From Vreelandella sedimenti (GTDB lineage: Bacteria > Pseudomonadota > Gammaproteobacteria > Pseudomonadales > Halomonadaceae), in contig NZ_JACCGK010000003.1 of the NCBI RefSeq assembly GCF_013416325.1, positions 1-64,000 on the forward strand: DNA of 64,000 bases. The letters run 5' to 3'. The notes under the pieces are model-generated. The model was not told where the DNA came from. It saw only the letters and a program-made list of their open reading frames with translations, and searched no databases. The translations under genes and the position numbers were made by a program. Positions 15,849-32,938 of this stretch are shown here, in pieces. Each line of letters starts with the position of its first letter. The first letter of the stretch is position 1.

Positions 15849-17363
15849 ATGCAGGGTGCATTGCTACGCAGCGGTAAAAGTGAGCGGTTTTCGGCGTTGG
15901 GGGAGACCGGACAGCCTGTCTTTCGTTCGGCTCTTCAGCTCAGAGAGTCCATTCGTCGTGAGGCACGCAAGCGCAAGTCACAAGAACCCGACTTCCCGCA
16001 TATGGAGCTGCATCTGGCAATTCCACAAAGCGATCAGCAGGGCGAACGCCTGGACTGGTATAGCGGAATGGAGGGCGATGTTATTCCCTGGAGTGCTGCT
16101 AGCGAAGAGGAACGAGCACCCGCCCGTCAAGAGCTGCGTCACTTTGAAACCTTTCTTGAAAGTTTTAGCGATTCTTCGTTGGCCAAAGCAGAAGGAACTC
16201 ATAATGACCGGGGCGTGCTGGCCAAATTGCTAAAGCAAGTCATTCGAATTCCCGATCAAGATTATGTTTATCTCGTCAATGGAACGCCTGTGCTTACCTT
16301 TTGGGGATTTGAGCATCCTGATGCCAAGCGTACTACCGACCCCTTACATTTTCTTTATCCGCAAGATACTGCCCCGGCACCAGCGCCAGGCCCCAACCCA
16401 GAAGTGCCGTTGGCAGGTACTCCTTCAACTGAGCCAGTCATCGAACAGAAATCCGTGTTGGAAGAGCGACGCCCTTGGTGGCGACGCTGGTGGCCGTTAG
16501 CTCTGCTGTTGTTATTGTTGTTGCTCTTGTTAACATTTTTCGGTCTGCGTAGTTGCACGCCACAAGCCAACCTGCCTGAAGTTGGGACTGGAAATTTGCA
16601 AGCGCCTGATTTTCAGACGTCTGATGTGAGCCTGAACAATCTGAACATGCCTACGTTACCGACTCTGAATTTTCCTGCTATTTCCTTACCTGATCTGTCC
16701 AATCCACATTGGTGGGGCGGTGCCAGTAATGGCGGAGCTGGAAGCAGCGGGATGGCACTTGATGGAAGCGGTGCAGGAGTTCCAGAAGCTGATTTACCTG
16801 AGATACAAGCTCCAGACCTTGGTATGGAGGCGAGTGTGCCCGAAGTGACTGCCTTGCCTGAAATGGGGGGTGCGGCAAGTGAACTGCCTGTCGAGGAGAA
16901 CTTAACTGCGTCGCCGGTTGCACCGCCTGAACTGGGGCAGGGGACGCCGCCAGCGAACTCCGAGGCATCGCCTTCAACAACGTTCGAACCGCTTACTATT
17001 CCTCCTCAGGCTGAGGATGGTCCCGCCGATTTCATGAACGGTAATTGGCGTGCAGCGGGTGTAATGGATAGCGAGACGGGACGCCCGTTACGCGTTTCCT
17101 ATGCATTTGAAAAAGGACAAGGGCAGGTACAGTTGCGCCATGCCGGCGATCAGGGTGGGGTTACCTGCACCGGCCCGATAGAGGCGGCAATGCAAGAGGG
17201 CGCGCTTTCGATACAAAGCCAGGGGCAGGCCAGTTGTGAAGATGGCAGCTTTTACGATATGCCCGAAGTGCTGTGTGAGCAGGGTGCCACCGACATGGCC
17301 GACTGCGCTGTCAGTTACGCCAACGAGACCTTTCCCATGCAAATGTGGAAAGACAACGAATAA
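15849..17363 (+). CDS. srfA: SrfA-like single-pass membrane protein, first gene of the srf-type operon
   Basis: 504 residues. A cytoplasmic domain of about 170 residues contains LDWYSG (68-73), EEERAPARQEL (86-96) and YVYLVNGTPVLTFWGF (139-154). A Pro-rich linker, a Trp/Arg patch and one membrane helix (about 215-231) follow. Then comes a long Pro/Gly/Asn-rich periplasmic linker (235-390) and a small C-terminal beta domain (about 395-504) with four or more cysteines. The positive charges before the helix place the N-terminus inside. Order and neighbours (srfB, srfC) identify it as the SrfA-like member. The domain at 60-155 recurs in the last gene of the operon. Function unknown. Confidence 0.75.
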   Translation: MQGALLRSGKSERFSALGETGQPVFRSALQLRESIRREARKRKSQEPDFPHMELHLAIPQSDQQGERLDWYSGMEGDVIPWSAASEEERAPARQELRHFETFLESFSDSSLAKAEGTHNDRGVLAKLLKQVIRIPDQDYVYLVNGTPVLTFWGFEHPDAKRTTDPLHFLYPQDTAPAPAPGPNPEVPLAGTPSTEPVIEQKSVLEERRPWWRRWWPLALLLLLLLLLLTFFGLRSCTPQANLPEVGTGNLQAPDFQTSDVSLNNLNMPTLPTLNFPAISLPDLSNPHWWGGASNGGAGSSGMALDGSGAGVPEADLPEIQAPDLGMEASVPEVTALPEMGGAASELPVEENLTASPVAPPELGQGTPPANSEASPSTTFEPLTIPPQAEDGPADFMNGNWRAAGVMDSETGRPLRVSYAFEKGQGQVQLRHAGDQGGVTCTGPIEAAMQEGALSIQSQGQASCEDGSFYDMPEVLCEQGATDMADCAVSYANETFPMQMWKDNE

Positions 17364-17391
17364 TTACGGAATGTGGGAGAAGAGTTGCGAC

Positions 17392-20300
17392 ATGTTGCCT
17401 GAAGTCACTCAGTTCCAAGACGTTGTCCCGTTGGTCAACGATACCGGTGTCCAGTTTCTAGATTTTGCCTTGACGCTCGACCCTCGTAAGGAAACCGGCG
17501 GTGAGTTTGCCAAGTTAGCAGATGATCTTCTAGTGCGCCTGCTGACCAATGAAGAAGATGGCACCACTTTTTATGAACCCGAGCCCAACAAGGTCGAGCG
17601 GGTGAGTAAGCCATATCTTGATATGGACATGGAGTCGAGTTTGTCGCTCTTGGATCGTCAGTGGGTACCAATACCGTTTTTTCGGCACATGCCGCCGCAT
17701 CGTTTTGATGAAGGCCCCAGTAACTGGTCTCGCATGCGCTTGGTGAAACTGGATACGCCGGATGTCGATGGTCACAGCCATCGCCTGACCTTGGCGTTTG
17801 ATACTCGCAGCATGGCCAAGCGCGAAGGCACGGCTTACCTGGCGCCTAATGAAGAAGATGTCCGTTCAGGTGAGACGTTCAAACTTGCCTTGACTCCCCA
17901 TGAAATGGGTTGGTTCATGGATCTAGCATGGGTAAAGGAATGGCTTAACGATCTATACCGGGAAGGCCACCCGGAAATGGATCAGAATGAGTTGGATGAC
18001 GACATCAAGGCGTTACATCCTCAGGCACATTATTTGAACCTGCTAAGCCTGCTGTGGAAGCCGATTCCTGCTGAGCGAACTCAGCGAAAGCCCAAGATAC
18101 GAGTGCCTGAGGTTCGCTTGGCGGGTAAGGATGCCAGTCAAAAAACCCCGATTTCCGTCGATCTTGTTCTGGATGTAGGTAACTCACGTACCTGCGGTAT
18201 TTTGATCGAGCATCATGCGCAATCAGGCTCCGGCCTCAAGCAGAATTATGTGCTGGAGTTGCGTGACTTGGTCGATCCAGAATTCGTTTATACCGAGCCC
18301 TTCGAAAGCCGCATTGAGTTTTCGCAGACTTTCTTTGGTAAGGATCATCTCTCGGTCAAGAGCGGTCGTCATGATGCTTTTCGCTGGCCCACGATCGCTC
18401 GCGTGGGAGGGGAAGCGGGCCGTCTAGCCAGTCGTCGTCGTGGAACCGAAGGGTCTACCGGTCTCTCCAGTCCGAAGCGCTATTTGTGGGATGGCAGCCG
18501 TTATACGCATGGTTGGCGTTTCAATAGCGCCTACGTCAAGGCAGACAAGGAGCCCTTTGCCACAGCCGCCCCTTTCTCCAACCTGATTAATGAGCGTGGC
18601 AAGGCGATCTACGCGGTCATGCGTGATGGTGAAGACGACGATCTCCCTGTCTTCAAGCCTCACTATTCGCGTAGTTCCTTGATGACATTCATGCTCTCGG
18701 AAGTATTGGCTCAGGCGTTGATGCAGATCAATAGCCCGGCTCAACGTTCCCGCCAGGGAAATATAGATATACCTCGCCGGCTACGCTCAATCATTCTGAC
18801 GGTGCCTCCGGCCATGCCGCTGGCAGAGCGGAGTATTTTGGATCAGCGAATGCGTGAAGCGGCTGGGCTGATTTGGCAGGGTATGGGCTGGTACCAAGGC
18901 GAAGATGACCCCTATCATCCGGAAGAAGCCGCCACGCCGACCCCCCCTTTACCAGAGATCCGTGTCGAGTGGGACGAAGCCACTTGCGGCCAATTGGTGT
19001 ATCTGTACACCGAGATCAATGAGAATTTTGCCGGTCATCCTGAAGAGTTTTTTGACACATTGGCGCGTCCTGAAAAGTTACAGCGTGACCGTATTACACT
19101 TGCCAGTATCGATATAGGCGGGGGGACGACTGACTTGGTGATTACCGATTACCGCGTCGAAAGTGGAGAGGGAAGCGGTAACAGTAGCAATGTACATATC
19201 GTTCCTGAGCAGCGCTTCCGTGATGGATTTCGTATTGCTGGAGATGACATCCTGCTTGATGTCATCCAGACCTTCGTGCTGAAAAGTTTCGAAGAATCCT
19301 TACAGCAAGCTGGCGTCTCGTCACCGGATGCCATGATGTCACGCCTGTTGGGTGGAGAGAGCCTGAGCGCCCAGGATCAGGTATTGCGTCAGCAGCTCAA
19401 TTTGCAGGTTTTCACCCCTCTGGGGCTGAAGTTGCTGAGTTACTACGAGGGATTTGATCCTCAGGAAAAGGAAAGCGAGGGGAACCCTCATATTATCACC
19501 GCCACGTATCGCGAGCTGCTGGGAGATCACGCAGCCAGCGAAGCAGTTAGAGAATATGTGCATGGTGCCGTGCGTCGTGACTTGAAAACCAATGGCACTA
19601 CTTCGTTTGAGCTAATGGATATACCGATCACCTTCAACCTGCCTCAGGTACATCGGGCTTTCTTGGGGGATGGTATCAACATTGGCAAGACCCTCGGCGC
19701 CCTATGCGAGGTGATCTACCAGTACGGCTGCGACATGTTGCTGCTGACCGGACGTCCTTCTCGGCTGCCGGGTATTCAGGCTTTTTTGCGCAAGATGTTG
19801 CCGTTGCCTCCAGGACGCATTTTGCCGATGCAGAACTACCGCACTGGTAATTGGTATCCCTTCCATAGCAATGGCGAGATCGACGATCCCAAAAGCACCG
19901 CGGCAGTTGGTGCCATGTTGTGCCTGCTATGCGATCAGTTGGATTTGCCCAGTTTCTATTTCCGTACGCAGGCACTCAAACCTTACTCATTGATTCGTCA
20001 TCTGGGCTCGATTGACAACAATAACGTTATGAAAAGCGATGACGTGGTCTATCGCGATATTAAGGCCAATGAAAATGGCACGGCGATTGAGCTGCCGGAA
20101 GAGGATGAACCCAAGGTGCAGGTACGTGGGGGCATTGTGCGCATTGGATATCGTCAGTTGGATGCCGAGCGTTGGGTGGCCTCGCCACTCTATACGCTGG
20201 AACTGACCGAGTCGGGCAAGGGGAAATATAAGCAGGCGGTGGTAAGTGAGGGAAACGGCAGTCAGCCGGTGGTCGAGGTGGAGCTTAAAGTTGTTGAAAA

Positions 20301-20472
20301 CAACACCAAGGGCGGCTTGATTAGTGATGAGCTGAAGGTCAGTCGAGTCACTGATAACACCAACAAATCATTTGGCAAAGCCGACGTTAACCTTCAGCTC
20401 AATACCATGATCGATGCCGGACTGGGCGATTCCAATTACTGGCTGGACAGTGGGAGTGTGAAGCGCAAATGA
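17392..20472 (+). CDS. srfB: SrfB-family actin-like ATPase
   Basis: 1026 residues from the ATG at 17392 (GGAG box; the N-terminal NDTGVQFLDFAL wording fits the family; the open frame begins further upstream inside srfA). Actin/Hsp70-fold signatures occur in order: phosphate-1 loop VLDVGNSRTC (Asp about 261), phosphate-2 loop SIDIGGGTTDLV (Asp about 574) and the adenosine motif LLLTGRPSRLPG (about 783-794). Length matches Salmonella SrfB, about 1000 residues, a protein long labelled virulence factor without known mechanism. No signal peptide: cytoplasmic. It overlaps srfC by 4 nt. Confidence 0.9.
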   Translation: MLPEVTQFQDVVPLVNDTGVQFLDFALTLDPRKETGGEFAKLADDLLVRLLTNEEDGTTFYEPEPNKVERVSKPYLDMDMESSLSLLDRQWVPIPFFRHMPPHRFDEGPSNWSRMRLVKLDTPDVDGHSHRLTLAFDTRSMAKREGTAYLAPNEEDVRSGETFKLALTPHEMGWFMDLAWVKEWLNDLYREGHPEMDQNELDDDIKALHPQAHYLNLLSLLWKPIPAERTQRKPKIRVPEVRLAGKDASQKTPISVDLVLDVGNSRTCGILIEHHAQSGSGLKQNYVLELRDLVDPEFVYTEPFESRIEFSQTFFGKDHLSVKSGRHDAFRWPTIARVGGEAGRLASRRRGTEGSTGLSSPKRYLWDGSRYTHGWRFNSAYVKADKEPFATAAPFSNLINERGKAIYAVMRDGEDDDLPVFKPHYSRSSLMTFMLSEVLAQALMQINSPAQRSRQGNIDIPRRLRSIILTVPPAMPLAERSILDQRMREAAGLIWQGMGWYQGEDDPYHPEEAATPTPPLPEIRVEWDEATCGQLVYLYTEINENFAGHPEEFFDTLARPEKLQRDRITLASIDIGGGTTDLVITDYRVESGEGSGNSSNVHIVPEQRFRDGFRIAGDDILLDVIQTFVLKSFEESLQQAGVSSPDAMMSRLLGGESLSAQDQVLRQQLNLQVFTPLGLKLLSYYEGFDPQEKESEGNPHIITATYRELLGDHAASEAVREYVHGAVRRDLKTNGTTSFELMDIPITFNLPQVHRAFLGDGINIGKTLGALCEVIYQYGCDMLLLTGRPSRLPGIQAFLRKMLPLPPGRILPMQNYRTGNWYPFHSNGEIDDPKSTAAVGAMLCLLCDQLDLPSFYFRTQALKPYSLIRHLGSIDNNNVMKSDDVVYRDIKANENGTAIELPEEDEPKVQVRGGIVRIGYRQLDAERWVASPLYTLELTESGKGKYKQAVVSEGNGSQPVVEVELKVVENNTKGGLISDELKVSRVTDNTNKSFGKADVNLQLNTMIDAGLGDSNYWLDSGSVKRK

Positions 20473-23207
20473 GCAACCTGACTGATAAACAACACCAATT
20501 GGGCCAAGGCTGGGACGCTGTGCACGCTGGGGCTGGTCAGGCCATCGAGTGGATCGAAGACGTTCGCAACAATGCCCCGCGCCTGGATAGTGAAGCCGAT
20601 AATCTGATCCTGGAATTGCACAAAGCGCGCAATCTTGCATCAAGCTTAGGGCGGGCTGCGGGTACCCCAATGACCATTGGTTTTTTTGGGTTGTCTCAAG
20701 CGGGGAAATCGTACTTGATCTCGGCATTGGCCGCAGGCCATAACGGCAAGCTGGAAACCGATTATGGTGGCAAGCGTCTCGACTTCATCGAGCACGTGAA
20801 TCCAGTTGGTGGGGGTAAGGAAGCTACGGGGCTAGTGACACGGTTTAGTCGCACGGCTAATAGCGGGCCGACTGATACACCTGTTGAACTGCGCCTATTC
20901 AGTGAAGTTGAGATCGCCAAGATACTGGCCAATGCCTGGTTCAATGACTTTGACCATGAGCAGTTGCACTATGAGTTGGATGAAGCGCGCATTGAGCGCA
21001 TTCTCAAGCCGTTTGAGGGTGTCGAGGTCACCGCAGAAACACAGCCCGGGCTGAGCGGTGATGACGTGGTATCCCTATGGGACTACCTCACTGGCAGCTT
21101 CAAAAAGTCAATTAGTAAGCTTGAAGCGCGCTACTGGCCCCGGGTTCTCAAACTGGCACCGCGTCTCTCCTGCGAACAGCGCGCTGATTTGTTTTCTCTG
21201 TTGTGGGGCGAGCAAGAAGAGCTCACTCGCCTTTATGTACAGCTAGCAGCCACCTTACGCCGTCTAGGTAATGCCTCTACTGTGTATGCGCCGCTTACTT
21301 GTCTAGTCACGCCTGAAGGCGACGGGTATAGCCAGCGTGACAGTATTATGAATGTGGATATTCTTGAGCGTCTGGGTAGCGCCGATGATCACAGTCTGGA
21401 CGTGAGACCTTTAGAGCAAGAAACGCTTGGCCATTACGTCGCGGTTTCGGTGGCTCAGTTGGCAGCGTTGACTGCCGAGCTCACGTTTCCTCTCATTGAG
21501 CCGACGCAGGATCCTCAGGTCGAAAAAGTCGATCTGCTTGATTTCCCCGGTTATCGCGGACGCCTAAGCCTAAAAAGTGTCAACGAAGCCGCCAGCCAAG
21601 CGAGTAGCCAAGGGGGCAACCCAGTTTCTCAGTTGATATTGCGCGGCAAGGTGGCGTACCTGTTTGAACGTTATACGGACAGCCAGGAAATGAACGCCTT
21701 GGTGGTGTGTACAAGTTCGGATAAACAGAGTGACGTGACCTCGGTCGGCCCAGTACTGACACGCTGGATTGAAAAGACTCAAGGATTGACCAGTCAAGAT
21801 CGTGCAGACAAGGCGCCAGGATTGATCTGGACGCTTACCATGTTTGATAAGCGCATCAGTGGGGCGCTGAACTTGACGGAAAGTCAGTTGCGCGAAGGCT
21901 GGGAAGGGTTGATTAAAATGACCTTATTGGAGCGCTTTGGCCAGTACGACTGGATGAATGAATGGGCTCCAGGACAGCCATTCAACAATACTTTCCTAGT
22001 TCGGAAGCCACGCCTGCCTGTTTCTTTTCTCAACAGTCGTGATAACGAAGAACTCGGTATCAATGACGACTACGAAGCGCCGCTTGAACGTATGGCATCC
22101 ACTTTTGGCGAGAATGCCAGTGTGCAAAAGCATGTGCAGGCTCCTGGCGAGGCCTGGGAGGCGATGCTGGCACTTAACGATGGCGGCATCAAGCGTATCA
22201 GCCAGTATCTCGGCCGTATCGCTACCCTGGAGTTCAAGCTGGCCAGCATTGAAAAGCAGCTGAATGAAACACTGAGTTCTTTGGTAGAAAAACGCTTGGC
22301 CCCCCTTCACCAGACGGATGGCAGCGGCGAAGTGGCTAAAAAACGGGAGGTCGCCAAGCTGTTATGGCAAAGCCTACAACAACGCCTGGCAACCCTGGGT
22401 GAGCTGCAGCACCAACTTGAGCTTCCTCAGCAAACGGTACGCGATCTTTACTTGAGCGATAGCGAAGAGGATGGAGTAACAGCTACTGAAGACGACGTGG
22501 ATAACGAGCCGAAGGTAGCCGATAGTCTTTATTGCAACAGTGGTTTTAACCTGAGTGATGATCCCTTCGCAGGTAGCATGCCGTTTGGTGAAGATGCATC
22601 CGCCGTACCTGCAGTGAAAAACGAGCCGGTGCTACAAGGGGCGGATCACCGTTTTGCTCGCAAGGTCTTTCAAGCATGGGTCGCCCATTTGCGAGAAATC
22701 CCCGGACGCCAGTCTCTGCTGCAACTGCTGGGGCTGGAAAAGGTAGTCGTTGAATCCTTGACCGATGAATTGATCACGGCAGCCAATCGCATGGCACTGC
22801 AACAACGCCTGGATCAAGCACTTCTGAGACGCGCCCAAAGTAGCGCCAAACGTGACCAGTTGGTGGAGCGTCAAGTATTGGCCGCCCAGTTGGTGCTGCG
22901 CGATTTTATTGCTTGGCTGGGCTACCAAGAAATGCCAATTGATGAGCGGCCGAATAGTCTTGCAGGCAAGAAGGACAAACTGTTCTTGCCGAGCGCACCG
23001 ATTTTATCGGGTGAGCTGCCCCATCTAGCGCCTCAGCCCGTCAATCAAGCTGTCCTTTATCTGGCCGATTGGCTTTCAGGAATTTGCATCGTGACGCAGG
23101 AAAATGCAGGACATACCGTCGGACGGGAAATTACCATGGAGCAGAACGAGCGCTTGGGCGCAGTGTTGTCATCCTTTCGCCAACTGGAGGTGACCTATGC
23201 GGGTTGA
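20469..23207 (+). CDS. srfC: SrfC-family dynamin-like GTPase
   Basis: 912 residues. A P-loop GLSQAGKS sits at 74-81 after an N-terminal helix bundle, and a Walker B/G3-like DFPG at 358-361 (VDLLDFPGYRGR). TMFDKR in LIWTLTMFDKR may play the G4 role. Large helical regions follow, as in dynamin-like proteins. It matches Salmonella SrfC in position and character. There is no membrane helix, but a dynamin-like enzyme next to an actin-like ATPase and membrane partners suggests action at the inner membrane (inference). The start overlaps the srfB stop (ATGA) and the end overlaps the next gene by 11 nt. Confidence 0.88.
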   Translation: MSNLTDKQHQLGQGWDAVHAGAGQAIEWIEDVRNNAPRLDSEADNLILELHKARNLASSLGRAAGTPMTIGFFGLSQAGKSYLISALAAGHNGKLETDYGGKRLDFIEHVNPVGGGKEATGLVTRFSRTANSGPTDTPVELRLFSEVEIAKILANAWFNDFDHEQLHYELDEARIERILKPFEGVEVTAETQPGLSGDDVVSLWDYLTGSFKKSISKLEARYWPRVLKLAPRLSCEQRADLFSLLWGEQEELTRLYVQLAATLRRLGNASTVYAPLTCLVTPEGDGYSQRDSIMNVDILERLGSADDHSLDVRPLEQETLGHYVAVSVAQLAALTAELTFPLIEPTQDPQVEKVDLLDFPGYRGRLSLKSVNEAASQASSQGGNPVSQLILRGKVAYLFERYTDSQEMNALVVCTSSDKQSDVTSVGPVLTRWIEKTQGLTSQDRADKAPGLIWTLTMFDKRISGALNLTESQLREGWEGLIKMTLLERFGQYDWMNEWAPGQPFNNTFLVRKPRLPVSFLNSRDNEELGINDDYEAPLERMASTFGENASVQKHVQAPGEAWEAMLALNDGGIKRISQYLGRIATLEFKLASIEKQLNETLSSLVEKRLAPLHQTDGSGEVAKKREVAKLLWQSLQQRLATLGELQHQLELPQQTVRDLYLSDSEEDGVTATEDDVDNEPKVADSLYCNSGFNLSDDPFAGSMPFGEDASAVPAVKNEPVLQGADHRFARKVFQAWVAHLREIPGRQSLLQLLGLEKVVVESLTDELITAANRMALQQRLDQALLRRAQSSAKRDQLVERQVLAAQLVLRDFIAWLGYQEMPIDERPNSLAGKKDKLFLPSAPILSGELPHLAPQPVNQAVLYLADWLSGICIVTQENAGHTVGREITMEQNERLGAVLSSFRQLEVTYAG

Positions 23208-24324
23208 ACTGCGTCCATTGGAGTCCGGTACGCCGGGTGAAGGCCGTTTGCTGCTCAAGGGGTGGAAAGGGGAAACGGCTTCTCTGCAACTGTCGATTCA
23301 AGAAAGCCAGGATCAACAGTTTTTGCACCCGGGAAAAACGTGGAGTACTAAGGCTCACACCTTTGAATTGGCTAGCCTGGAGGAGGCCGGTGACCAGCGT
23401 CTCCAAGTGCTCCTCGACAGTACTATCATAGATCCTCTGTTGGAGCTTCCCGGCTCTACACAATATTTGCTGACCTTGCAGGATGCCCAGGGCATAAAAG
23501 ACCAAGGTGTGATAAAGCTTTCACGCGATTTGATGCCCTCTAGTGCTTCGGGTTCCACGCCTTCTACGGGGGGGAGCAGCGTCCTGCATTCACCATCGGT
23601 TGCGGAAAAGGCACCCGAACCGACGCCAGAGCCGGAAATAAAGGTGGATGCTGAGCCGGAGCCTGCTCAGGTGCCGGAAGTGGAAGTGCCACCCGTGCCT
23701 GCCAGTAAGGCAAGTAAGCGCGGCCCATTGCTATTTATATTACTGGGGCTTTTGCTCCTGGCAGCAGTGGCTTTAGGTGCTTGGTATTGGTTCAGTAATA
23801 ACGCTGATAATTCAGGGGCCGATCCGGTTGAACAAGAAAACGTCGAGGAAGAAGAGACTAACGGAGCAGAGGAAAGCACTCTAACGGAAGAAAATATCGA
23901 GGTCGGCAACGAGGACGCTGACGTACCCTCTGAGGAAAACACAGAAGACGTCATTACAGCCACTCCCCCTGGCCCAGCCCCGGCATGTTCGATTGAAGCT
24001 CTTGAAGAGCAGGACGAACTGGCGTTCGTGCAGGGATGTTCCCAAGCTGAGCTGACTCCTGAAGCACTGCTTTCTGTGATCGAAGCTGCTCGTGATGCAG
24101 AGCATTGTGGGATAGCACGACGGCTTTATGCCAACCGTGCTATCGCAGGCGATGCCAATATTGCTCTGGCCTATGCCCGTGAATACGACCCAGCTTATCA
24201 CCAGACAAGTACCTGCTTTACGGAAGCTGATGCCGAAACTGCTAGCTATTGGTACCAGATTGTATTGGACATCGAACCCGACAATAGCGAAGCGCAGGCA
24301 CGTTTTGAGGAGCTGGGCGAATGA
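23197..24324 (+). CDS. Single-pass membrane protein with cytoplasmic beta domain and periplasmic helical-repeat domain
   Basis: 375 residues. Residues 1-115 look beta-rich and cytoplasmic. A Pro/Glu linker leads to KASKRGP and one membrane helix (about 178-201), then a highly acidic linker (205-255), then about 115 residues of short helices with paired cysteines resembling TPR/Sel1-like repeats (AEHCGIARRLYANRAI, ETASYWYQIVLDIEPDN). The N-in/C-out topology is the same as the SrfA-like protein. It overlaps both neighbours (11 and 4 nt), so it is an integral part of the operon. I do not recognise a named family. Confidence 0.8.
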   Translation: MRVELRPLESGTPGEGRLLLKGWKGETASLQLSIQESQDQQFLHPGKTWSTKAHTFELASLEEAGDQRLQVLLDSTIIDPLLELPGSTQYLLTLQDAQGIKDQGVIKLSRDLMPSSASGSTPSTGGSSVLHSPSVAEKAPEPTPEPEIKVDAEPEPAQVPEVEVPPVPASKASKRGPLLFILLGLLLLAAVALGAWYWFSNNADNSGADPVEQENVEEEETNGAEESTLTEENIEVGNEDADVPSEENTEDVITATPPGPAPACSIEALEEQDELAFVQGCSQAELTPEALLSVIEAARDAEHCGIARRLYANRAIAGDANIALAYAREYDPAYHQTSTCFTEADAETASYWYQIVLDIEPDNSEAQARFEELGE

Positions 24325-26321
24325 TACGCAACGCACTCGCGACCTTAATGTTCTCAACTGTCGCTTTATCGGTAACTGGGCTTTGTGCCACGGCTACGCT
24401 AGCTGATCCACGTCCTCTACTGCAGGAAGGCAAGCAAACCTTACATCAACGTGTCCTGACCACGCCTGGGTGCGAGTTAACTGATACAGCGGGAATTAGT
24501 GGCGAATTGCAACCTGCTTTCACCCGTTTCTATGTGTATGAGCGCAGCGAGGTGGATGGGCGCGAATGGTTGAAGGTTGGGCCGGATAGTTACGGCACTA
24601 TCAGCGGCTGGCTGCCAGCAGACTGTAGCGTGGCTTGGAAGATGCAACTTACGCTGGCATTCACTAATCCAGCTAACCGTCAGCGACTGCTGTTCTTCCG
24701 TGAAAGAGACGCGCTTCAAGATATTCTCGATGAGTTTGAGCCTTCCAGTCGCGTTGTTCCTTTGCATGCCGCCCTAGATCGTGAGGAAGAGATCCCCGAT
24801 ATATTGGCGCGGGAGCCTGAGTACTTTGTCGACCTTCAGGAACAATTCTATTTGTTACCGATACTCGAAGGCGAAGAAGTTTTTACCGAAGCCGGATTTC
24901 GCGCACGACTGTTGAACGTGGCGTCGGTAAGCAAGGCCGGTGAGCCTGACCCTGCCGACACTGAAATTGACCCTGAAGATGACATACCAGCCAGTCAATT
25001 GCGTGAGTTCAATGCAGGTGTCGTCTTCGTGATCGACTCGACGATTTCCATGGGCCCATATATCGAACGTACCCGCGAGGCGGTGAGTAAGATACTCGAT
25101 CGAATTGAGTCGGAAAACCTGGAGGAGCAGGTCAAGTTCGGCCTGGTCTCTTATCGTGATAGCGTGGAAAGCGTACCTGAGCTCGAATACATCAGCCGTA
25201 TGTATGCCAACCCGATGGAAGTGCAAGGCAGGCAGGACTTGATGGCGCGCATGGACGAACTTCATGAAGCCACGGTGTCCACACCTGGGTTTGAAGAAGA
25301 TGCTTACGCTGGGGTAATGCAGGCAATTGATGAAGTGGAGTGGAGCCAATATGGTGCCCGCTATATCGTTCTGATTACCGATGCCAGCGCCATTGATGGT
25401 GACAATGAACGCTCCTCTACAGGGTTGAGTGCCGATCAGGTGCGTCTGGAAGCGGCTAATCCGGGGGTGGCGATCTATACGCTGCATCTGAAAACCGAGA
25501 GTGGCGAGCGCTTTGGCGACCACACCAGAGCCGCGGCGCAATATGCCAATCTTTCCACTTATGCGGGAACCAATACCTCGCTGTATTACCCGGTGGAAGC
25601 GGGGGATGTAGAGGCATTTGGTGCCAAGGTGGATGCCTTGGCTGAGGCGATCACTTCTCAGGTGCGTGCTGCTTATATCGGCGATGAGGCTATTGGCAGT
25701 GCTTTGAATGCACATCAGTCTGATTCTAGCGAGGTTGATCCGGATCAACAGCAATTACTGGAAGATGCGGATCTTATTGGCCACGCCATGCAGCTTGCCT
25801 ATCTGGGGCAGCAGGCTGGCAGCAAGGCACCGCCGGTTTTTCAAGCCTGGATCAGTGATCGCGACTTGGTACAGCAGAACCGTCCAAGTACGGACGTTCG
25901 AGTGTTGCTGACCAAATCTCAGTTGAGTGACCTGAGTGATGTGGTGGCGCAGATTCTGGATGCTGGTAATCAAGGCCTGATTTCACCCACTGACATGTTT
26001 GAACGCTTGCGCTCGGTAGCGGCTGCAATGGGCACCGACCCCAATCAGCTACAGCAAAATGAATCCACTCAGATAGCCGAGCTGGGGCTGATGGGGGAGT
26101 ATTTGGAAGATTTACCTTATCAGAGTGAGGTGCTCAACCTGGATGAAGCCACCTGGAAGAGCTGGGACGGTCTTTCTCAAGAGAGGTTCATCCGCAATCT
26201 GAGCATTAAGTTGCGCCACTATCAACGCTATAACGAGGATGTTGACCGCTGGGTCTCTCTTGCCGAAGGCAGTGATCCACGGGATGACGTCTATCCGGTT
26301 CCTCTTGAAATGATGCCGTAA
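24321..26321 (+). CDS. Secreted von Willebrand A domain protein of the srf-type operon
   Basis: 666 residues with a signal peptide ending near TATLADP. Residues about 45-110 could be an SH3-like module (RSEVDGREWLKVGPDSYG, SGWLPADC). A vWA domain follows at about 230-430: VVFVIDSTISMG, where the metal-site triad reads D239-S-T-I-S with Thr in place of the usual middle Ser, later TPGFEEDAYAGVMQAI and YIVLITDASAID. The C-terminal 200 residues are helical. It is likely periplasmic, binding a partner through its metal site. The start overlaps the previous gene by 4 nt. Confidence 0.85.
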   Translation: MIRNALATLMFSTVALSVTGLCATATLADPRPLLQEGKQTLHQRVLTTPGCELTDTAGISGELQPAFTRFYVYERSEVDGREWLKVGPDSYGTISGWLPADCSVAWKMQLTLAFTNPANRQRLLFFRERDALQDILDEFEPSSRVVPLHAALDREEEIPDILAREPEYFVDLQEQFYLLPILEGEEVFTEAGFRARLLNVASVSKAGEPDPADTEIDPEDDIPASQLREFNAGVVFVIDSTISMGPYIERTREAVSKILDRIESENLEEQVKFGLVSYRDSVESVPELEYISRMYANPMEVQGRQDLMARMDELHEATVSTPGFEEDAYAGVMQAIDEVEWSQYGARYIVLITDASAIDGDNERSSTGLSADQVRLEAANPGVAIYTLHLKTESGERFGDHTRAAAQYANLSTYAGTNTSLYYPVEAGDVEAFGAKVDALAEAITSQVRAAYIGDEAIGSALNAHQSDSSEVDPDQQQLLEDADLIGHAMQLAYLGQQAGSKAPPVFQAWISDRDLVQQNRPSTDVRVLLTKSQLSDLSDVVAQILDAGNQGLISPTDMFERLRSVAAAMGTDPNQLQQNESTQIAELGLMGEYLEDLPYQSEVLNLDEATWKSWDGLSQERFIRNLSIKLRHYQRYNEDVDRWVSLAEGSDPRDDVYPVPLEMMP

Positions 26322-26355
26322 AGCACCGGCTTCTCAGACAATTGAGGAAGATAGG

Positions 26356-27054
26356 ATGTTGGCGATAAAGGGCATGATGGCTCAGCGTGGTCATGGCGAC
26401 CATGCGCATCGAATTCGACTACCCGAGCTATCTCTGGCGCCGGGCCAGTGCTTGGCTATTACCGGTCCTAGCGGGTGTGGCAAGAGCACTTTGTTAGAAA
26501 CGGTGGGGCTGTTGTTAGCACCAAGTGAGCTTGAATGCTTCATGCTGGGAAAACCGCAAAAAGATGTGGCAACACTTTGGCGTACCCGCGAGCAAGGCGA
26601 GCTGGCCAAGCTGCGCGCGCGCGACCTTGGTTTTGTACTTCAAAGTGGGGGGCTCCTGCCATTTTTAAGTGTGGCTGACAATATCGCCTTGCCGCGCCGT
26701 ATACAAAGTCTGCCCATTAAGAGTGACCGTATCACTCAAGCAGTCGATCGTTTAGGGCTGATACCGCTGATGGAAAAGCGGCCAGCAATGCTGTCTATTG
26801 GTGAGCGTCAGCGGGTAGCCTTCGTGCGCGCCCTGGCTCATGAGCCACAACTGCTGTTGGCTGATGAACCCACAGCAGCGCTTGATCCGCATAGTGCGCA
26901 TGGGCTCTTCGCACTATTTATGGAAGTAGTGAAAGAGCTACAAATCGCCGCTTTGGTGGTCTCTCACGACTGGGCTCTTGTAGAGACATTTGGAGTGCCG
27001 CGTTTTGATGCCGTCACGGTAAAAGGGGAGACCGTCTTTGAACCTCGCCCTTAA
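26356..27054 (+). CDS. ABC transporter ATP-binding protein, MacB/LolD type
   Basis: 232 residues. Walker A GPSGCGKST (37-45), Q-loop region GFVLQSGGLLPFLS, signature LSIGERQRV and Walker B LLLADEPTAALDP are all present, so it should hydrolyse ATP. The order of elements and length fit the MacB/LolD subfamily that drives FtsX-like permeases rather than substrate import. It has a GAGGAAG-type ribosome site, and the permease start lies within its last codons (17-nt overlap), so the pair works together. Confidence 0.9.
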   Translation: MLAIKGMMAQRGHGDHAHRIRLPELSLAPGQCLAITGPSGCGKSTLLETVGLLLAPSELECFMLGKPQKDVATLWRTREQGELAKLRARDLGFVLQSGGLLPFLSVADNIALPRRIQSLPIKSDRITQAVDRLGLIPLMEKRPAMLSIGERQRVAFVRALAHEPQLLLADEPTAALDPHSAHGLFALFMEVVKELQIAALVVSHDWALVETFGVPRFDAVTVKGETVFEPRP

Positions 27055-28267
27055 GCGTTTGCGCCTGCTGGCATTGTTAGCGCTGCAGGATATCTGGCAT
27101 GACCGCAAGGTATCAATGTGTATTGCAGCAGCACTAGTTGCCGTGATCGCGCCACTGCTATTGCTGTTCGGTCTCAAGTATGGGGTGGTCAGTCAATTAC
27201 AGTCCGAACTACTTGATGATCCGCGGAACTTGGAAATCGGTATGGTTTCCAGTGGAAGGTATGACGCTGCCTGGCTCGATAGTTTGCGTAGCCGCCCCGA
27301 TGTAGGGTTTGCGATTGGAATGACACGTTCACTCAATACCCAGGCAGATTTGGTCGCCGACCCTCAACATTTCCTGGATAACGCTGAAATCATCCCAACG
27401 GCAGAAGGAGACCCTCTGCTGTCGTCATTAACGCTTTCAGAGCCGCTTCAAGGGCCGGAAGTGGTGCTTAGTGAGTCGGCTGCACGGCGCTTGAATGTTG
27501 ATGTGAATGACCCACTGAGCCTGTTCGTCAGCCGTCGACTCGATGGCAGAGCGGAGCGTGGCAGGCAATTTATTGTCGTGGCAGGTATTTTGCCACCTGA
27601 CGTCTTTCCACGTCCGGCTGCCTTTGTTCCTTTGCCGCTCTTGATCGCGCTTGAGGAGTTTCGCGATGGCTATCACATCGATGCTCTTGGCGTGGGCACT
27701 GGCGAGCCACGAGGCGAAAGGGAAACACAGTTTTCACGTGCCCGTATGTATGCCGCCGATATTGATCAAGTGGCGGAGTTGGAGCAGTGGCTCAATGCCC
27801 AGCATATAGATACAGTTAGCCGCCTCGCGGAGATTGAGAATGTCAGGGCAATCAGTCACGTGCTGGGGCTAGTGTTTGGCGTGATTGCTATTACCGCGCT
27901 GGTGGGCTGCCTAGCCTCAATGTTGGGCGCTTTTCTGGCCAATATCGACCGGAAGCGCAAGGATCTGGCGGTGTTGCGTCTGCTGGGGTTCGATCGTCCG
28001 GCAATTGCGGGGTATATCGTGTTACAGGCTGGGACATTGACACTAGCTGCCTATGCAGTAGGGCTAGTCCTCTATGGACTGGGAAGCCAGGTGTTCAACC
28101 AAGCGTTGGCGACTAGCTCGACAACTGGAAGTGTTGTCTGTCGAATCACCTTCATGCACGGCGTAATAGCACTTTTATTGGCTTTGCTGGTTGCGCTCAT
28201 GGTGGCGGTGATCGGTGTGCTGCGCGCCTTTAGTATCGAACCTGCGGAGAGTCTGCGTGAATTATAA
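27038..28267 (+). CDS. FtsX/MacB-like ABC permease
   Basis: 409 residues: one membrane helix near residues 26-48, a periplasmic domain of about 220 residues, then three helices (about 275-400) with LAVLRLLGFDRPAIAGY between them, as in LolC/LolE/MacB/FtsX. The start is a TTG within the ATPase gene, preceded by GGGGAG at a good distance. Such permeases do mechanical work across the envelope, moving lipoproteins or controlling periplasmic enzymes. No binding protein or outer-membrane channel gene is nearby; instead two lipoproteins follow. Confidence 0.88.
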   Translation: MNLALKRLRLLALLALQDIWHDRKVSMCIAAALVAVIAPLLLLFGLKYGVVSQLQSELLDDPRNLEIGMVSSGRYDAAWLDSLRSRPDVGFAIGMTRSLNTQADLVADPQHFLDNAEIIPTAEGDPLLSSLTLSEPLQGPEVVLSESAARRLNVDVNDPLSLFVSRRLDGRAERGRQFIVVAGILPPDVFPRPAAFVPLPLLIALEEFRDGYHIDALGVGTGEPRGERETQFSRARMYAADIDQVAELEQWLNAQHIDTVSRLAEIENVRAISHVLGLVFGVIAITALVGCLASMLGAFLANIDRKRKDLAVLRLLGFDRPAIAGYIVLQAGTLTLAAYAVGLVLYGLGSQVFNQALATSSTTGSVVCRITFMHGVIALLLALLVALMVAVIGVLRAFSIEPAESLREL

Positions 28268-29828
28268 ATCTTCTAGACGTTTTGCTGGGCTCTATGGCAA
28301 TGCCTGTTGGGTTGCTGTCTTGCTGTTGCAGGCGGGAAGCGCTTCGGCCGAATGGGATGAGCGGCTCTATAATCCCATGCCTCTGGATGACGACATCATA
28401 CTGCCGATGCCTTGCGATGGTGCCATGGCGTTTCGCAAAATCCATATTCCCTCTGCTGGGCCGCTTGACGATTATCCCATCAATATTGGCCAGGATGGTA
28501 CCGGGTGGGGCTATGTAGAACAGCGTCGCCCCTCTTATGTTTCAGGCAACTTCAGTGAGGTCGAAGGAGGCTCGCGCTACTACTTGCTGGCCAAGTATGA
28601 AACAACTCAGTTGCAGTATGAGGCCTTGATGGCTGAAGAGTGCCCGTCACCTTCTACTCGCTTGCGCTTACCGGCGGTATCGGTAAGTTGGTTCGATGCA
28701 ACAGCGGCGGCTGATCGTTACAACTTGTGGCTGCGCCAAAATACTGAAGATATTTTACCCCAAGAGGACGGTGTGCTGGGTTTTGTACGCTTACCGACAG
28801 AAATAGAGTGGGAGTATGCCGCACGAGGTGGCTTGGAAGTTGGCACCGCCGAATTTCGCGACAGCCGCTACCCCATGCCAGAGGGCTTGAATGGTCATGA
28901 GTGGTTCGCTGGCCCTCAGTCAGCTAATGGTCAATTACAACTGGCGGGTTTATTACAACCCAACCCGTTGGGGCTGCATGACGTCCTTGGCAACGTGGCA
29001 GAAATGATGTTTGAACCTTTTCGTCTCAATAAACTGGATCGCCAGCATGGTCAAGCGGGTGGTTTTGTGGTGCGAGGGGGTAATTATTTAACGCCCCAAA
29101 GTGATATCCGCACTTCTCTTCGCGGCGAAGAGCCTTATTACCGAGAAGCTGGTCAATCCCAGAGTGGTCAAGTGGGCTTTCGCTTATCACTCGTTGCTCC
29201 CACATTGACCTCTCGAGAACGCATAGCCGCTATTGATGAGAGTTGGCAGCATTTGGGAAAGGACTTAGCTGATGGAGACGCAACGCAAGATACACCGGGA
29301 ACCGTTGAGCAGTTGAGCAGCTTAGCTGCTGAACAAGAAGACATTGCATTGCAAGAGCAGTTACAGGACTTAGAGAACCAGTTAAGAGCAAGTAATCAGC
29401 GCCAAGAGGAAGCGCGAAACTTAGCGGTTCGCGCCAGTCTCAATTTAGGGAGCTTCCTTTGTACTAAGTTAGAGGATGACGGCGTTTTTCTCGATTTTCT
29501 GCACAATAATTATCAGATGAATTGTGGGGTAGACAGTACTGACACTAGTTGTGATATGCGTCAACAACGTCTGGAAGAGCAAGATGCGAGACTGGAAGCA
29601 CTAAGCCGTTATTACGCCAGTAGTCTAGTCGAATCTGCCACCTTATATGGTGAAAATCTACTGGGAGAGCAAGTGGGAGTGTTCGAAGAGATCATTACTC
29701 ACAATAAACAGCTTACTCAACTAAAGCCATATCTACATACTCACTGGGAAAACCAACGCGAATATCTGCAACAACAACACATTTCCACCAATGATTGGCT
29801 GGAAAACTGTAAAGCCATGGCAAATTAA
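28257..29828 (+). CDS. Secreted FGE/SUMF1-fold protein with C-terminal coiled coil, probably non-catalytic
   Basis: 523 residues from a GTG at 28257 with a GGAG site, overlapping the permease stop by 11 nt. A signal peptide (VAVLLLQAGSASA) is followed by a formylglycine-generating-enzyme fold: RLPTEIEWEYAARGG, NPLGLHDVLGNVAEM, VVRGGNYLTPQSDIRTSLR and VGFRLSL. The two cysteines that the true enzyme carries after RGG are missing, so sulfatase activation is unlikely and a binding role is probable. From about residue 340 the protein is a charged coiled coil. FGE-fold domains of this kind occur in bacterial conflict systems (family knowledge). Confidence 0.85.
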   Translation: MNYKSSRRFAGLYGNACWVAVLLLQAGSASAEWDERLYNPMPLDDDIILPMPCDGAMAFRKIHIPSAGPLDDYPINIGQDGTGWGYVEQRRPSYVSGNFSEVEGGSRYYLLAKYETTQLQYEALMAEECPSPSTRLRLPAVSVSWFDATAAADRYNLWLRQNTEDILPQEDGVLGFVRLPTEIEWEYAARGGLEVGTAEFRDSRYPMPEGLNGHEWFAGPQSANGQLQLAGLLQPNPLGLHDVLGNVAEMMFEPFRLNKLDRQHGQAGGFVVRGGNYLTPQSDIRTSLRGEEPYYREAGQSQSGQVGFRLSLVAPTLTSRERIAAIDESWQHLGKDLADGDATQDTPGTVEQLSSLAAEQEDIALQEQLQDLENQLRASNQRQEEARNLAVRASLNLGSFLCTKLEDDGVFLDFLHNNYQMNCGVDSTDTSCDMRQQRLEEQDARLEALSRYYASSLVESATLYGENLLGEQVGVFEEIITHNKQLTQLKPYLHTHWENQREYLQQQHISTNDWLENCKAMAN

Positions 29829-29849
29829 AAAAACGCAAGGGAACATATT

Positions 29850-30614
29850 ATGAAAATCAAGAAAATTTCAAAGAAAACAATCAATTCTGGCTGGAAAAAA
29901 GCACTGATGGTATCCGCTGTTGCTGGCAGTATGCTGGTACTAAGTGGTTGCGTCACAACGGGAAGTTCGCTGTTATCCGGTAATTCATCCGGATCATCAG
30001 CGGATCCGCGTCTAACCCAGGGCAATGACGCTCAGTTCTTCAGTCGTTCAGGTTATCAAGCTTGTGCTGCAGGTGCTGCTGCAGGCCTATTAGGTTGTGC
30101 ACTTACTAACCCTGGGAACAAGACACAGTGCATGATCGTGGCAGGTATTGGAGCATGTGGCGTCGCCATGGGAGCTAATTACTACCTAGATCAACGACGC
30201 AGCGAATATGCAAATACAAGTGAGCGTTTGGAGGCAATGAGCGCTGATATTCAAGAAGATACACGTAAGGTTATTGCACGAACTGAAACCGCGCGTGAAG
30301 TGATGCGAGAGGATGAGGCTCGCCTTCAGCGTATTCAGCGTGAAATTGAGACGCAACAACTTGATCAAGCGGCGGCTGAACGTGACTTAGCTGCGATCGA
30401 CGGTAACATCGGAATTTTGCGTCGCGAGTTGGTTAATATGCGCAATAAAGCAGAAGAATATCAAGAAGTCGCAGATGCAGAGCGTGTAGAGGCAAGCCCA
30501 GAGGAAATAGCCCGTATCGAGCAGGATATCGACTTGATGAACCAGCAAGTGCTGGCGTTGCAGCAAGAAGTGGATGATCTCTACAACATGCGTTCCGCTA
30601 TTACTTTAGGTTAA
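29850..30614 (+). CDS. Coiled-coil lipoprotein with glycine-zipper-like segment
   Basis: 254 residues. The basic start and hydrophobic core end in a lipobox, LSGC (Cys about 33), so the mature protein is lipid-anchored. A small-residue segment, CAAGAAAGLLGCALTNPGN and the following IGACGVAMGANYY, may pack in or on a membrane. Residues 115-250 form a long charged coiled coil. It is 21 bp after the FGE-fold gene with an AAGGGA site. It may bridge the membrane-anchored partners in the periplasm (inference). Confidence 0.82.
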   Translation: MKIKKISKKTINSGWKKALMVSAVAGSMLVLSGCVTTGSSLLSGNSSGSSADPRLTQGNDAQFFSRSGYQACAAGAAAGLLGCALTNPGNKTQCMIVAGIGACGVAMGANYYLDQRRSEYANTSERLEAMSADIQEDTRKVIARTETAREVMREDEARLQRIQREIETQQLDQAAAERDLAAIDGNIGILRRELVNMRNKAEEYQEVADAERVEASPEEIARIEQDIDLMNQQVLALQQEVDDLYNMRSAITLG

Positions 30615-30630
30615 GAAATCAGGTGCTACC

Positions 30631-31125
30631 ATGATGAATAAAACCGTGTTGATCGCCAGCAGCATGATTCTGCTGGCGGGTTGCGCTACCTCCCCAGAAC
30701 AGTGCGATCCCTACAATCGCGATGCGAGTCTTGTGGCCAAATTTTCCTGCGACACTTCAGGTGCCTATCGTGCACAAGTCGAGCAGCGGGAGCAGCAGGT
30801 ACGACTTGATCAAGAAGAGAATGCTCTGTTTCGTCAGGTATATGCTGATATTAAGGCCCAGCAGAATGCAACCCGACAAGATATGAATGTTCAGCTAGAA
30901 AAGCAGCAAGCATTGAACGAATCTCTGCAAACGCTTCTAACACGCCTTAATGCACGTACTGGAGAGGAGTTAGGCCTACAGCACCGTCTAAATGATCTTG
31001 AACAGCAGCTACAAGCAAACCAAGAACCTGCCAATGGTGAAGCTGAGATTGAGGCTCGTAGAGCCCGGCTGACCGAGCTTGAACAACAAGTTAATCGCCT
31101 ACATCAAAGTCTCGGCTATGAATAA
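30631..31125 (+). CDS. Small coiled-coil lipoprotein
   Basis: 164 residues. The lipobox LAGC is at about 16-19. After a short Cys-containing segment (EQCDPYNRD, FSCDTSG) nearly all of the rest is a Gln/Glu-rich coiled coil, similar in style to the preceding lipoprotein. The start is one of two adjacent ATGs at 30631 and 30634. It lies 16 bp after the first lipoprotein and 15 bp before the terminal vWA gene, clearly the same transcript. No family recognised. Confidence 0.78.
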   Translation: MMNKTVLIASSMILLAGCATSPEQCDPYNRDASLVAKFSCDTSGAYRAQVEQREQQVRLDQEENALFRQVYADIKAQQNATRQDMNVQLEKQQALNESLQTLLTRLNARTGEELGLQHRLNDLEQQLQANQEPANGEAEIEARRARLTELEQQVNRLHQSLGYE

Positions 31126-31140
31126 GGCGAAAGACTAATC

Positions 31141-32430
31141 ATGCAACGTATCCTGCGCGACTCCCAGGAGAGGCTGGGTGGTACCTTCGAGAGCTATCAG
31201 TCCAAGGTCGCTCTTATCCATCGCCACTTTCCTCCTAGCATTGGCAATATGTTTGCTATGCCGCGTAACGGTCAGGGCGATACGCTGGAGTGGTGGACGG
31301 AACTGCCAGGTCAGCCGATACGTTTTGATGCCTTAGATGAAGAGCAGCAGGCTGCTTTGCTGGAGCGTTATCAACAGCGTCAGCAAAGTCTGGGGCACCT
31401 AGCCGATGAGCTTATTCGGCGAGGGGACTCCGATGGTGGCAAGAGTTTGAAAACCTTGGTTGGCCCAGCTGACGAGCAACATCTCTACAGTCTTAATGGA
31501 GAGCCCGTCGTGATTCGCTGGGGAGCTGAAAAGGTGAAAGCCACTGCTTCAGATTTTATACCTCAGTCTGTGCCAATTGCTTCAACAGTTGCGCCTGTAA
31601 CGTCTTCCTCTCGTAGATCTTTCAGGTCACTAATGTGGTTGTTGCCGGTGCTTCTCCTTTTTTTCCTGGGATGGCTACTGTATCTATTTTGGCCACTGGA
31701 TCGCTTTTGGTCAGACGGCTTAACTAATGCTTCCGAGAAAGAGGTCGTCCCTTATGCTTGCCGTGAAGAGGGGAGTTTACCACCAGAGTTTGTAATGATA
31801 TTTGATACATCAGGGTCAATGAATATCAATATTGCTGCAACTCAAGAAGATGAAGACTGGTATTTCAGTATGACCGAATTGCATATGATGTTGTTGCGGA
31901 ATATGGGCAATGAGCGTCTCAGAACTCTGGAAACAGGTACTTCACGACTGGAAGTTGCTAAGGATGCTATTTCTGGAATTATTAATCAGCTTCACTCTGA
32001 TATTGACACTGGGCTAATTACTTATGCCGGGTGTGGAGCCCCTGTCAAACAGGGAGTATTTAGTGGATCCCAGCGTGAACAATTGATAGATGGAATAAAG
32101 GCACTAAATGCCTACGATGGTACACCCCTTGCGGCCAGTTTAGTATCTGCGGCAGAAATGGTAGATGGACGTGAACGTGATGCAGTCATCATTGCCTTTG
32201 TTGATGGAACCGACGGTTGCGAACAAGATCAGTGCCAAGTGGTAGCAAACATCATAAAAAAACAGCCACGTATTACAATTAACGTTGTTGACGTAACTAC
32301 AGGTGGTCTTTCCAATTGTTTAGCAGAGCAAACTGGTGGCCAAGTTTTCAGTTCAAAGAATGCTGATGAGATTGCTCGAATGATGGAGCAAGCTAGCTCA
32401 CAGATGCTAAATGCTAGCCATTGCGAATAG
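31141..32430 (+). CDS. Membrane-anchored vWA protein with SrfA-like N-terminal domain
   Basis: 429 residues. Residues 48-130 align by eye with residues 68-155 of the SrfA-like protein: LEWWTELPGQPI against LDWYSGMEGDVI, and LYSLNGEPVVIRWG against VYLVNGTPVLTFWG. One membrane helix (about 164-184) follows, then a vWA domain from about 215 with a perfect metal site, DTSGSM (222-227), DGTPLAASL and the strand IIAFVDGTDG. So the vWA part lies outside the inner membrane. It closes the operon, which appears to begin and end with proteins sharing one cytoplasmic module. Confidence 0.87.
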   Translation: MQRILRDSQERLGGTFESYQSKVALIHRHFPPSIGNMFAMPRNGQGDTLEWWTELPGQPIRFDALDEEQQAALLERYQQRQQSLGHLADELIRRGDSDGGKSLKTLVGPADEQHLYSLNGEPVVIRWGAEKVKATASDFIPQSVPIASTVAPVTSSSRRSFRSLMWLLPVLLLFFLGWLLYLFWPLDRFWSDGLTNASEKEVVPYACREEGSLPPEFVMIFDTSGSMNINIAATQEDEDWYFSMTELHMMLLRNMGNERLRTLETGTSRLEVAKDAISGIINQLHSDIDTGLITYAGCGAPVKQGVFSGSQREQLIDGIKALNAYDGTPLAASLVSAAEMVDGRERDAVIIAFVDGTDGCEQDQCQVVANIIKKQPRITINVVDVTTGGLSNCLAEQTGGQVFSSKNADEIARMMEQASSQMLNASHCE

Positions 32431-32938
32431 TCATGATTTACCCGCTTCAGGAGTTGGTGTTTCTGCTGGAGTGACTGTTTTGGTATATTTTTATTTCGCC
32501 ATAATTGGAATTTTATTGTTAAAATAAGATTTGATTATAGTGCTATAAATTGCATTAAATATGGGGTGATTAGTCAATAATGAGTGATGAATTTTCTGCC
32601 CTTTTAGTATTTAAAATATTTTTTTTGTTCGATAGTTAAACTCAATCTGCATGACTTTTGACAGATGAGTAAGCAGTTAAAAAAGGGCTGTTGTTTACCA
32701 TCTGTGCCATAATATTTTGCTCAGGTGGTCCCCATCCCGAACGTACGGCCTCGTCCCTGATATAGCCGAGAGTGAGAGCAGGTAGCTTTGTTCACTGTCC
32801 GGTCACCCTCATGCATCCTAATACGACACATGCCAGCTGCTTCAGCACCTGCAGCTTAATATCCACGACCTTCCTCCTGGATTAACGTATTCTCTACGCT
32901 TTGTCCCTCTCGGCTGACTATTGCCAAGGAAATGCCCC
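32431..32938. other. AT-rich gap after the srf-type operon
   Basis: About 500 bp with no credible gene. The first 270 bp are strongly AT-rich. I see no clean hairpin with T-run directly after the last stop. From about 32720 the base composition rises to that of the flanking genes, and the end must contain the creA promoter. The AT-rich zones on both sides of 15849-32430 resemble the borders of an acquired island. Confidence 0.5.

Follow-up and report, generated by a model that had tools for sequence, protein, structure and literature searches.

The first 64,000 nucleotides of contig NZ_JACCGK010000003.1 of Vreelandella sedimenti (hereafter the window) carry a locus that combines the SrfA, SrfB and SrfC families with eight further genes. 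It occupies 15849-32430 on the + strand and consists of eleven intact, tightly packed open reading frames (ORFs) with no internal stops, as a preliminary description of this DNA had proposed. With starts chosen at 17392 for SrfB and 28257 for TagR, the intergenic spacings from gene 1 to gene 11 are 28, -4, -11, -4, 34, -17, -11, 21, 16 and 15 bp. Judged from sequence comparison, genes 5 to 9 are homologous to the periplasmic region of PpkA and to TagT, TagS, TagR and, by a weaker match, TagQ of the type VI secretion system (T6SS) threonine phosphorylation pathway (TPP), and the kinase is missing. The gene identities, for which two family-library scans each took in 10 of the 11 proteins, are as follows.

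15849..17363, + strand: gene 1, SrfA (NF040486, E 1.3e-103)
17392..20472, + strand: gene 2, SrfB, predicted Hsp70-like ATPase (PF07520, 1300 bits; AlphaFold2 (AF2) model)
20469..23207, + strand: gene 3, SrfC, predicted dynamin-like GTPase (PF10139, 1089 bits; P-loop GLSQAGKS; AF2 model)
23197..24324, + strand: gene 4, protein with a single transmembrane segment (TM) (alignment; standalone relatives)
24321..26321, + strand: gene 5, exported vWA protein, kinase-less (PF00092; 568-589 bits against eight PpkA C-termini)
26356..27054, + strand: gene 6, TagT-type ABC ATPase (PF00005; 228-236 bits to eight TPP TagT)
27038..28267, + strand: gene 7, TagS-type FtsX/MacB permease (PF02687; 344-381 bits to TPP TagS)
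28257..29828, + strand: gene 8, TagR-type exported FGE-fold protein, predicted non-catalytic (PF03781; 279-298 bits to TPP TagR)
29850..30614, + strand: gene 9, TagQ-type coiled-coil lipoprotein, lipobox LSGC-V (35-59 bits to TPP TagQ)
30631..31125, + strand: gene 10, second lipoprotein, coiled coil, lipobox LAGC-A (sequence)
31141..32430, + strand: gene 11, SrfA-like N-domain, TM and periplasmic vWA domain (NF040486 partial, E 1.4e-9; PF13519, E 2.2e-8)

The strong matches that place the three Srf families together in one operon, and the family matches of the vWA protein, ABC pair, FGE-fold protein, two lipoproteins and membrane vWA protein, uphold the identities first given to these genes. 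SrfA has a cytoplasmic N-domain, which it shares with gene 11, one TM (the hydrophobic segment was judged by eye) and a periplasmic C-domain, while gene 4 has a cytoplasmic N-domain, a Pro-rich linker, a TM and a Sel1/TPR-like periplasmic C-domain. The FGE-fold protein is predicted to be non-catalytic because 75 of 76 relatives have no Cys in the stretch of 34 residues that follows the 'RGG' motif. Under the +2 rule for lipoprotein sorting, the residue after the lipobox Cys is informative; it is mostly Ala or Gln in TagQ rows (Val in the window) and Ala in gene 10 rows, which is consistent with sorting to the outer membrane, and 11 TagQ rows showed no lipobox by a simple pattern. The nearest named relatives of the locus are from Halomonas/Vreelandella. 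Neither a promoter scan (7 against 16.6) nor a terminator scan (16 against 17.5) gave an excess over shuffled sequence.

The relationship to the Tag proteins was examined by searching 59 Pseudomonadaceae genomes with the TagQ model NF041250; the eight above its cut-off provided eight TPP loci, and the regions surrounding these were read with profiles built from srf loci. The order PpkA-TagT-TagS-TagR-TagQ was found in all eight. The PpkA ORFs range from 756 to 1164 aa, the shortest being truncated by a contig end, and in every one the C-terminal ~620 residues match gene 5 from end to end. TagT and TagS matched in 8/8 loci, and TagR matched in the same position, at the scores listed above. TagQ shares its position and a lipobox with gene 9; similarity is weak, and NF041250 gives 15.5 bits against a cut-off of 300. 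Since the profile matches fall in the same order, genes 5-9 are best read as kinase-less relatives of the PpkA periplasmic part and TagTSRQ. The kinase domain lies within residues 8-254 of both PpkAs that were scanned (two of the eight), and used as a query it found no relative among the ORFs of the srf loci searched or of the standalone loci described below. The host genome (G000) encodes three kinase-domain proteins elsewhere, has a single match to gene 5, and gave neither TssB nor TssC, i.e. no T6SS sheath genes. A survey of 39 other srf genomes, representing a part of the srf loci, found TssB in 23 and none in 16. Gene 4 occupies the place of the PpkA kinase and TM, and its 15-26-bit match to PpkA seems to cover the TM/Pro-rich part; gene 4 is not claimed to be a piece of PpkA.

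Quick trees, built from 54 rows for gene 5 and as many for TagS, separated three groups. The 27 srf rows formed one clade (support 99 and 96, respectively), the eight T6SS-type rows another (99 and 99) and 16 of the 19 standalone rows a third (100 and 95); L151 joined the T6SS-type rows, and L152 and L153 were long branches. The sensor module therefore has at least three lineages.

Conservation of the locus was assessed from an alignment of SrfB, which yielded 509 relatives, the best 80 of them giving the named loci used here; these loci favour near relatives of the window and, together with the window, supplied the seeds of the profiles. They come from Pseudomonas, Stutzerimonas, Halomonas, Aeromonas, Erwinia, Pantoea, Proteus and Xenorhabdus, and also from Gilliamella, Pasteurella, Alcaligenaceae, alphaproteobacteria and one Stygiobacter metagenome-assembled genome. 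SrfC, gene 4, gene 5, TagT and TagS follow SrfB directly in 69 of the 74 loci with at least 7.6 kb downstream of SrfB, and because this order is kept the genes are taken to form one system in these loci. Of the five loci that depart from this, L057 and L082 are ORF-calling cases; the others are L067, L102 and L104. TagR comes after TagS in 67 of 70 loci, and TagQ, gene 10 and gene 11 stand upstream of SrfA instead in Aeromonas, Siccibacter, Erwinia and Pantoea loci. Long ORFs in L019 and L093 looked like fusions of genes 4 and 5, which are not claimed since the ORFs overlap. The srf locus of a Symbiopectobacterium (L065) is in many pieces, as expected for a decaying symbiont genome.

Each half of the locus also occurs alone. 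SrfB was found in 46 of 99 genomes sampled from the family of Silvania, which we take to be the Enterobacteriaceae, and 40 srf loci were fetched from 37 of these 46: 37 hold srfABC only, two are complete (L242, L244) and one is divergent. Two enterobacterial genomes carry a complete locus and a separate srfABC-only locus (L230 with L242, and L232 with L244). A FastTree phylogeny of SrfB, comprising 130 rows after those below 900 aa were left out and rooted at the midpoint, placed the 37 ABC-only rows in one clade (support 100) beside the complete loci of Proteus, Xenorhabdus and Silvania; because of the midpoint root, the direction rests on where the divergent rows attach. The SrfC P-loop is intact in 79/79 complete loci (rows of up to 650 aa were left out, which removed L065 from the 80) but in only 7/37 ABC-only loci, and its state requires three changes inside the ABC-only clade. 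A segment of 80 residues (SrfC 469-548) is present in 79/79 complete and 0/37 ABC-only loci, and the SrfB phosphate-1 loop has Arg in 80/80 of the former and His in 37/37 of the latter. All of six more SrfC rows, cut by contig ends, interrupted or divergent and belonging to neither class, kept the P-loop. ABC-only SrfC proteins are 703-835 aa long against ~883 to 969 aa in complete loci, and among the best 120 of 297 matches the Salmonella-named SrfC rows are of 661-719 aa, save one annotated fusion of 870 aa and one partial sequence of 571 aa. Because the ABC-only loci fall in a single clade whose SrfC has decayed, the joined locus appears to be the general state and the split one a derived and decayed version.

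The other half was sought in 369 Gammaproteobacteria, where a strong gene 5 match (E <= 1e-50) was found in 26, SrfB above cut-off in 7 and both in 4. Loci were fetched from 19 of the 22 gene-5-only genomes, and in 18 of them gene 5, TagT and TagS stand in order without SrfABC. A relative of gene 4 lies directly upstream in 15/19. TagR was found in 2/19 (L152, L153) and TagQ in 0/19, the contigs of L140 and L151 stopping just after TagS, and an 83-residue ORF in L150 gave a 20-bit TagR match. These Gammaproteobacteria (L135-L152) carry, in the absence of srf genes, a cassette that encodes a Sel1/TM protein, a vWA protein, an ABC ATPase and an FtsX permease. Three loci (L022, L023, L024) encode a divergent SrfB, 34-39% identical, in genomes with no gene 5 match, which is possibly an older branch; in L024 it is paired with a divergent SrfC.

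The preliminary description had seen one envelope-spanning machine here, and had held that srfABC found without the last eight genes, with those genes elsewhere, would speak against a single system. Half of this is the case, given 37/40 Enterobacteriaceae loci without them and gene 5, TagT and TagS on their own in 18/19. What stands is the conserved core order and the homology of the sensor half to a known trans-envelope signalling system. That srfABC and the Tag-like genes are neighbours merely by chance or shared history is very improbable, for although each half is found alone, the order is kept in those 69 loci and the trees of gene 5 and of TagS both unite the srf-type rows in one clade.

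SrfB and SrfC were also compared by predicted structure. The AF2 model of SrfB (predicted local distance difference test score, pLDDT, 87.8) contains an Hsp70-type nucleotide-binding domain and has an extra N-terminal part of ~250 residues. Among the Foldseek matches listed, 48/50 were named Hsp70-class, the remaining two being ciliary-complex chains, and the rows from VIA-align were Hsp70-class. As regards a substrate-binding domain, the range of the structural alignment with DnaK reaches DnaK residue 505, at a root-mean-square deviation of ~7. SrfB is therefore predicted to be an Hsp70-like ATPase. It had earlier been called an actin-like ATPase, which holds in the wide sense of the actin superfamily; an actin-type filament former is not preferred, as the nearest predicted fold is Hsp70/DnaK. 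Profiles of SrfB and of gene 5 found no match among Protein Data Bank sequences. For SrfC (pLDDT 85.3) the structural matches were SynDLP, BDLP and mitofusin, and GTPase motifs combined with a predicted dynamin fold agree with its first description as a dynamin-like GTPase; it is predicted to be a bacterial one.

From these observations we consider it about an even chance that the locus is a kinase-less envelope sensor of the TagQRST-PpkA type with SrfB/SrfC membrane remodelling in place of T6SS firing. While homology of the sensor is evident at the level of sequence, the signal and the membrane-remodelling output are what we infer. TagQ and PpkA are reported to be needed for the response to mechanical or polymyxin-nonapeptide damage to the outer membrane (PMC11881912), the bacterial dynamin DynA to support membrane integrity and guard membranes against antibiotics and phage (PMC8844932), and SrfA, SrfB and SrfC of Xenorhabdus to form a complex (PMC6950479). 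The locus would detect outer-membrane or periplasmic damage and then switch on membrane remodelling or repair by SrfB and SrfC. When the outer membrane is damaged, the TagQ and gene 10 lipoproteins would signal to TagR and the vWA protein, and the TagTS ABC pair would couple this signal through the inner membrane, where the cytoplasmic N-domains of gene 4, SrfA and gene 11 might relay it, replacing kinase signalling. Acting as a clamp of the Hsp70 type, SrfB could load SrfC at the membrane or recycle it there, and remodelling or sealing of the inner membrane would fall to SrfC. A wider proposal, put forward tentatively and thought possible but unlikely, is that bacteria use a single ancient sensor of envelope damage that can be joined to either of two interchangeable outputs, a T6SS-firing kinase or the SrfB-SrfC repair pair; Salmonella srfABC would be a decayed remnant of the repair machine without sensor and GTPase.

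Several observations weigh against a damage sensor that gates SrfB and SrfC. The similarity of gene 9 to TagQ is weak, and distribution is patchy, SrfB being present in 6 of 151 genomes of the family. The figure of 69/74 under-samples the ABC-only form, because the list holds the 80 nearest of 509 relatives. Loss of the SrfC segment and the SrfB Arg-to-His change are fixed across the ABC-only clade and so count as single events, each fitting one ancestral event and not 37. The survival of srfABC without the sensor in many enterobacteria implies some sensor-independent role, and in L024, whose genome gave no gene 5 match, the divergent SrfC retains both P-loop and segment, so that an intact GTPase does not always need a TagQRST-type sensor. 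Finally, SrfABC of Xenorhabdus is described as cytotoxic to animal cells (PMC6950479).

Constitutive envelope housekeeping, in which TagTS with TagR/TagQ would move or sort lipoproteins in the manner of MacB/Lol, SrfB serving as a chaperone and SrfC organising the membrane, is an unlikely alternative. It accords with a permease of the FtsX/MacB family, two lipoproteins in the locus and an Hsp70-like SrfB, and it sits poorly with the patchy distribution and with a nearest characterised relative that is a signalling module. A secreted tripartite SrfABC toxin exported by the other eight genes, a reading suggested by the cytotoxicity of the Xenorhabdus proteins to HeLa cells (PMC6950479), is improbable. 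SrfB and SrfC have no signal peptide by eye, their models resemble cytosolic Hsp70 and dynamins, and the family scans gave no match to an outer-membrane channel family for any of the remaining eight proteins. Moreover, the srf locus is common in Halomonas and Pseudomonas, many of which are free-living.

Anti-phage defence, in which the sensor would detect phage injection and SrfC delay lysis like DynA, is equally improbable; it draws on the dynamin-like fold of SrfC, the DynA precedent (PMC8844932) and the adjoining phage and insertion sequence (IS) debris. When 10 of the 11 proteins were scanned with PADLOC, the one strong match was to mad3, at 78.6 bits and on the ABC ATPase, and is read as generic ABC; the others were weak, and no defence family was matched beyond generic ABC or coiled coil. 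Gene order is stable across several classes, which is not so in typical defence islands. Surface or contact sensing, by which the locus would tune the envelope for swarming, is improbable too: Salmonella srfABC is reported to be under FlhDC and to affect swarming (PMC4219756), but its SrfC is short as in ABC-only loci (within the best 120 of 297 matches) and its role possibly derived. Against these alternatives the kinase-less sensor coupled to SrfB and SrfC is preferred.

The surroundings of the locus were also considered. AT-rich gaps on both sides had suggested an island, and their GC content is indeed 0.40; the operon itself, at 0.523, is close to the 0.538 of the window, and a scan of the 64-kb window found no tRNA. 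The left flank holds IS fragments, phage debris, a helicase and matches to C4/isrK RNA. Right-flank genes lie near the srf locus in one of the four Halomonadaceae genomes whose flanks were read (G125, of the same genus) and not in the other three. The difference in flanks and the presence of SrfB in so few genomes of the family make gain, loss or movement of the locus likely, and it is possibly a mobile island. At 14659-14854 on the - strand, upstream of a phage-type helicase, there is a C4 antisense RNA (RF01695, 75 bits) accompanied by sub-threshold isrK and a1/b1 target matches, likely what is left of an immunity region from a phage or satellite. An AT-rich stretch at 9039-11324 contains fragments resembling two transposases, of HTH_38 type and DDE_3 type. 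To the right of the operon are a CreA-family gene (32921-33427) and a CAP-domain gene (33443-34111), and 32700-32790 looks by eye like a 5S rRNA fragment, yet Rfam gave no match at E up to 1.

The larger gene set had been described as having no agreed function, a reading that missed both the TagQRST/PpkA identity and the published neighbourhood. The srf/tag neighbourhood is not new, since Campbell et al. in 2013 reported host-associated Deltaproteobacteria in which srfABC lies with hap, ligA, ppkA and tagQRST, T6SS machinery being reported in just one of them, and took ppkA to be a threonine kinase that might trigger export of SrfC (PMC3608642). In the open-licence literature the published links found between srf and TPP genes were this paper and one line of PMC6950479, and no account was found of the kinase being absent, of gene 5 being equivalent to PpkA, of a cassette that stands alone, of decay in the ABC-only clade or of an Hsp70/dynamin pair. 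Until now srfABC has been labelled a virulence locus, a motility locus or a toxin, without a mechanism. Its link to a T6SS damage sensor and an Hsp70/dynamin pair gives one testable function, which if true would be a bacterial sensor-gated dynamin system, and explains how these genes can be of use to bacteria that lack a T6SS. As the GTPase motifs are mostly broken in enterobacterial srfABC, it may be a poor object of study.

The locus was compared with several known systems. With the TPP of the Pseudomonas H1-T6SS type it has five gene families, that of TagQ by a weak match, and their order in common, whereas it lacks the kinase domain, has a separate gene 4, adds SrfABC, gene 10 and gene 11, and lies in a genome without T6SS sheath genes. 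The standalone 4-5-T-S cassette of other Gammaproteobacteria has the genes and order of the srf locus, but no SrfABC, rarely TagR and no TagQ in the loci fetched. The srfABC operon of Salmonella and relatives shares the three Srf families; in srfABC-only loci the other eight genes are missing, SrfC is shorter with a mostly broken P-loop, and SrfB has His for Arg, Salmonella itself being compared here by listed SrfC length, which is short like that of ABC-only loci. The deltaproteobacterial neighbourhood of Campbell et al. likewise joins srfABC to tagQ, 'ppkA', 'ligA' and mostly tagRST; by the paper's description its 'ppkA' was read as a kinase, whereas the corresponding gene here is the kinase-less vWA part. 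Among the bacterial dynamin-like proteins, which also include LeoA and DynA, the fold predicted for SrfC resembles SynDLP, BDLP and IniA, although identity in structural alignments is just ~8-16%, and SrfC differs from these in having an Hsp70-like ATPase and an envelope sensor as its operon partners.

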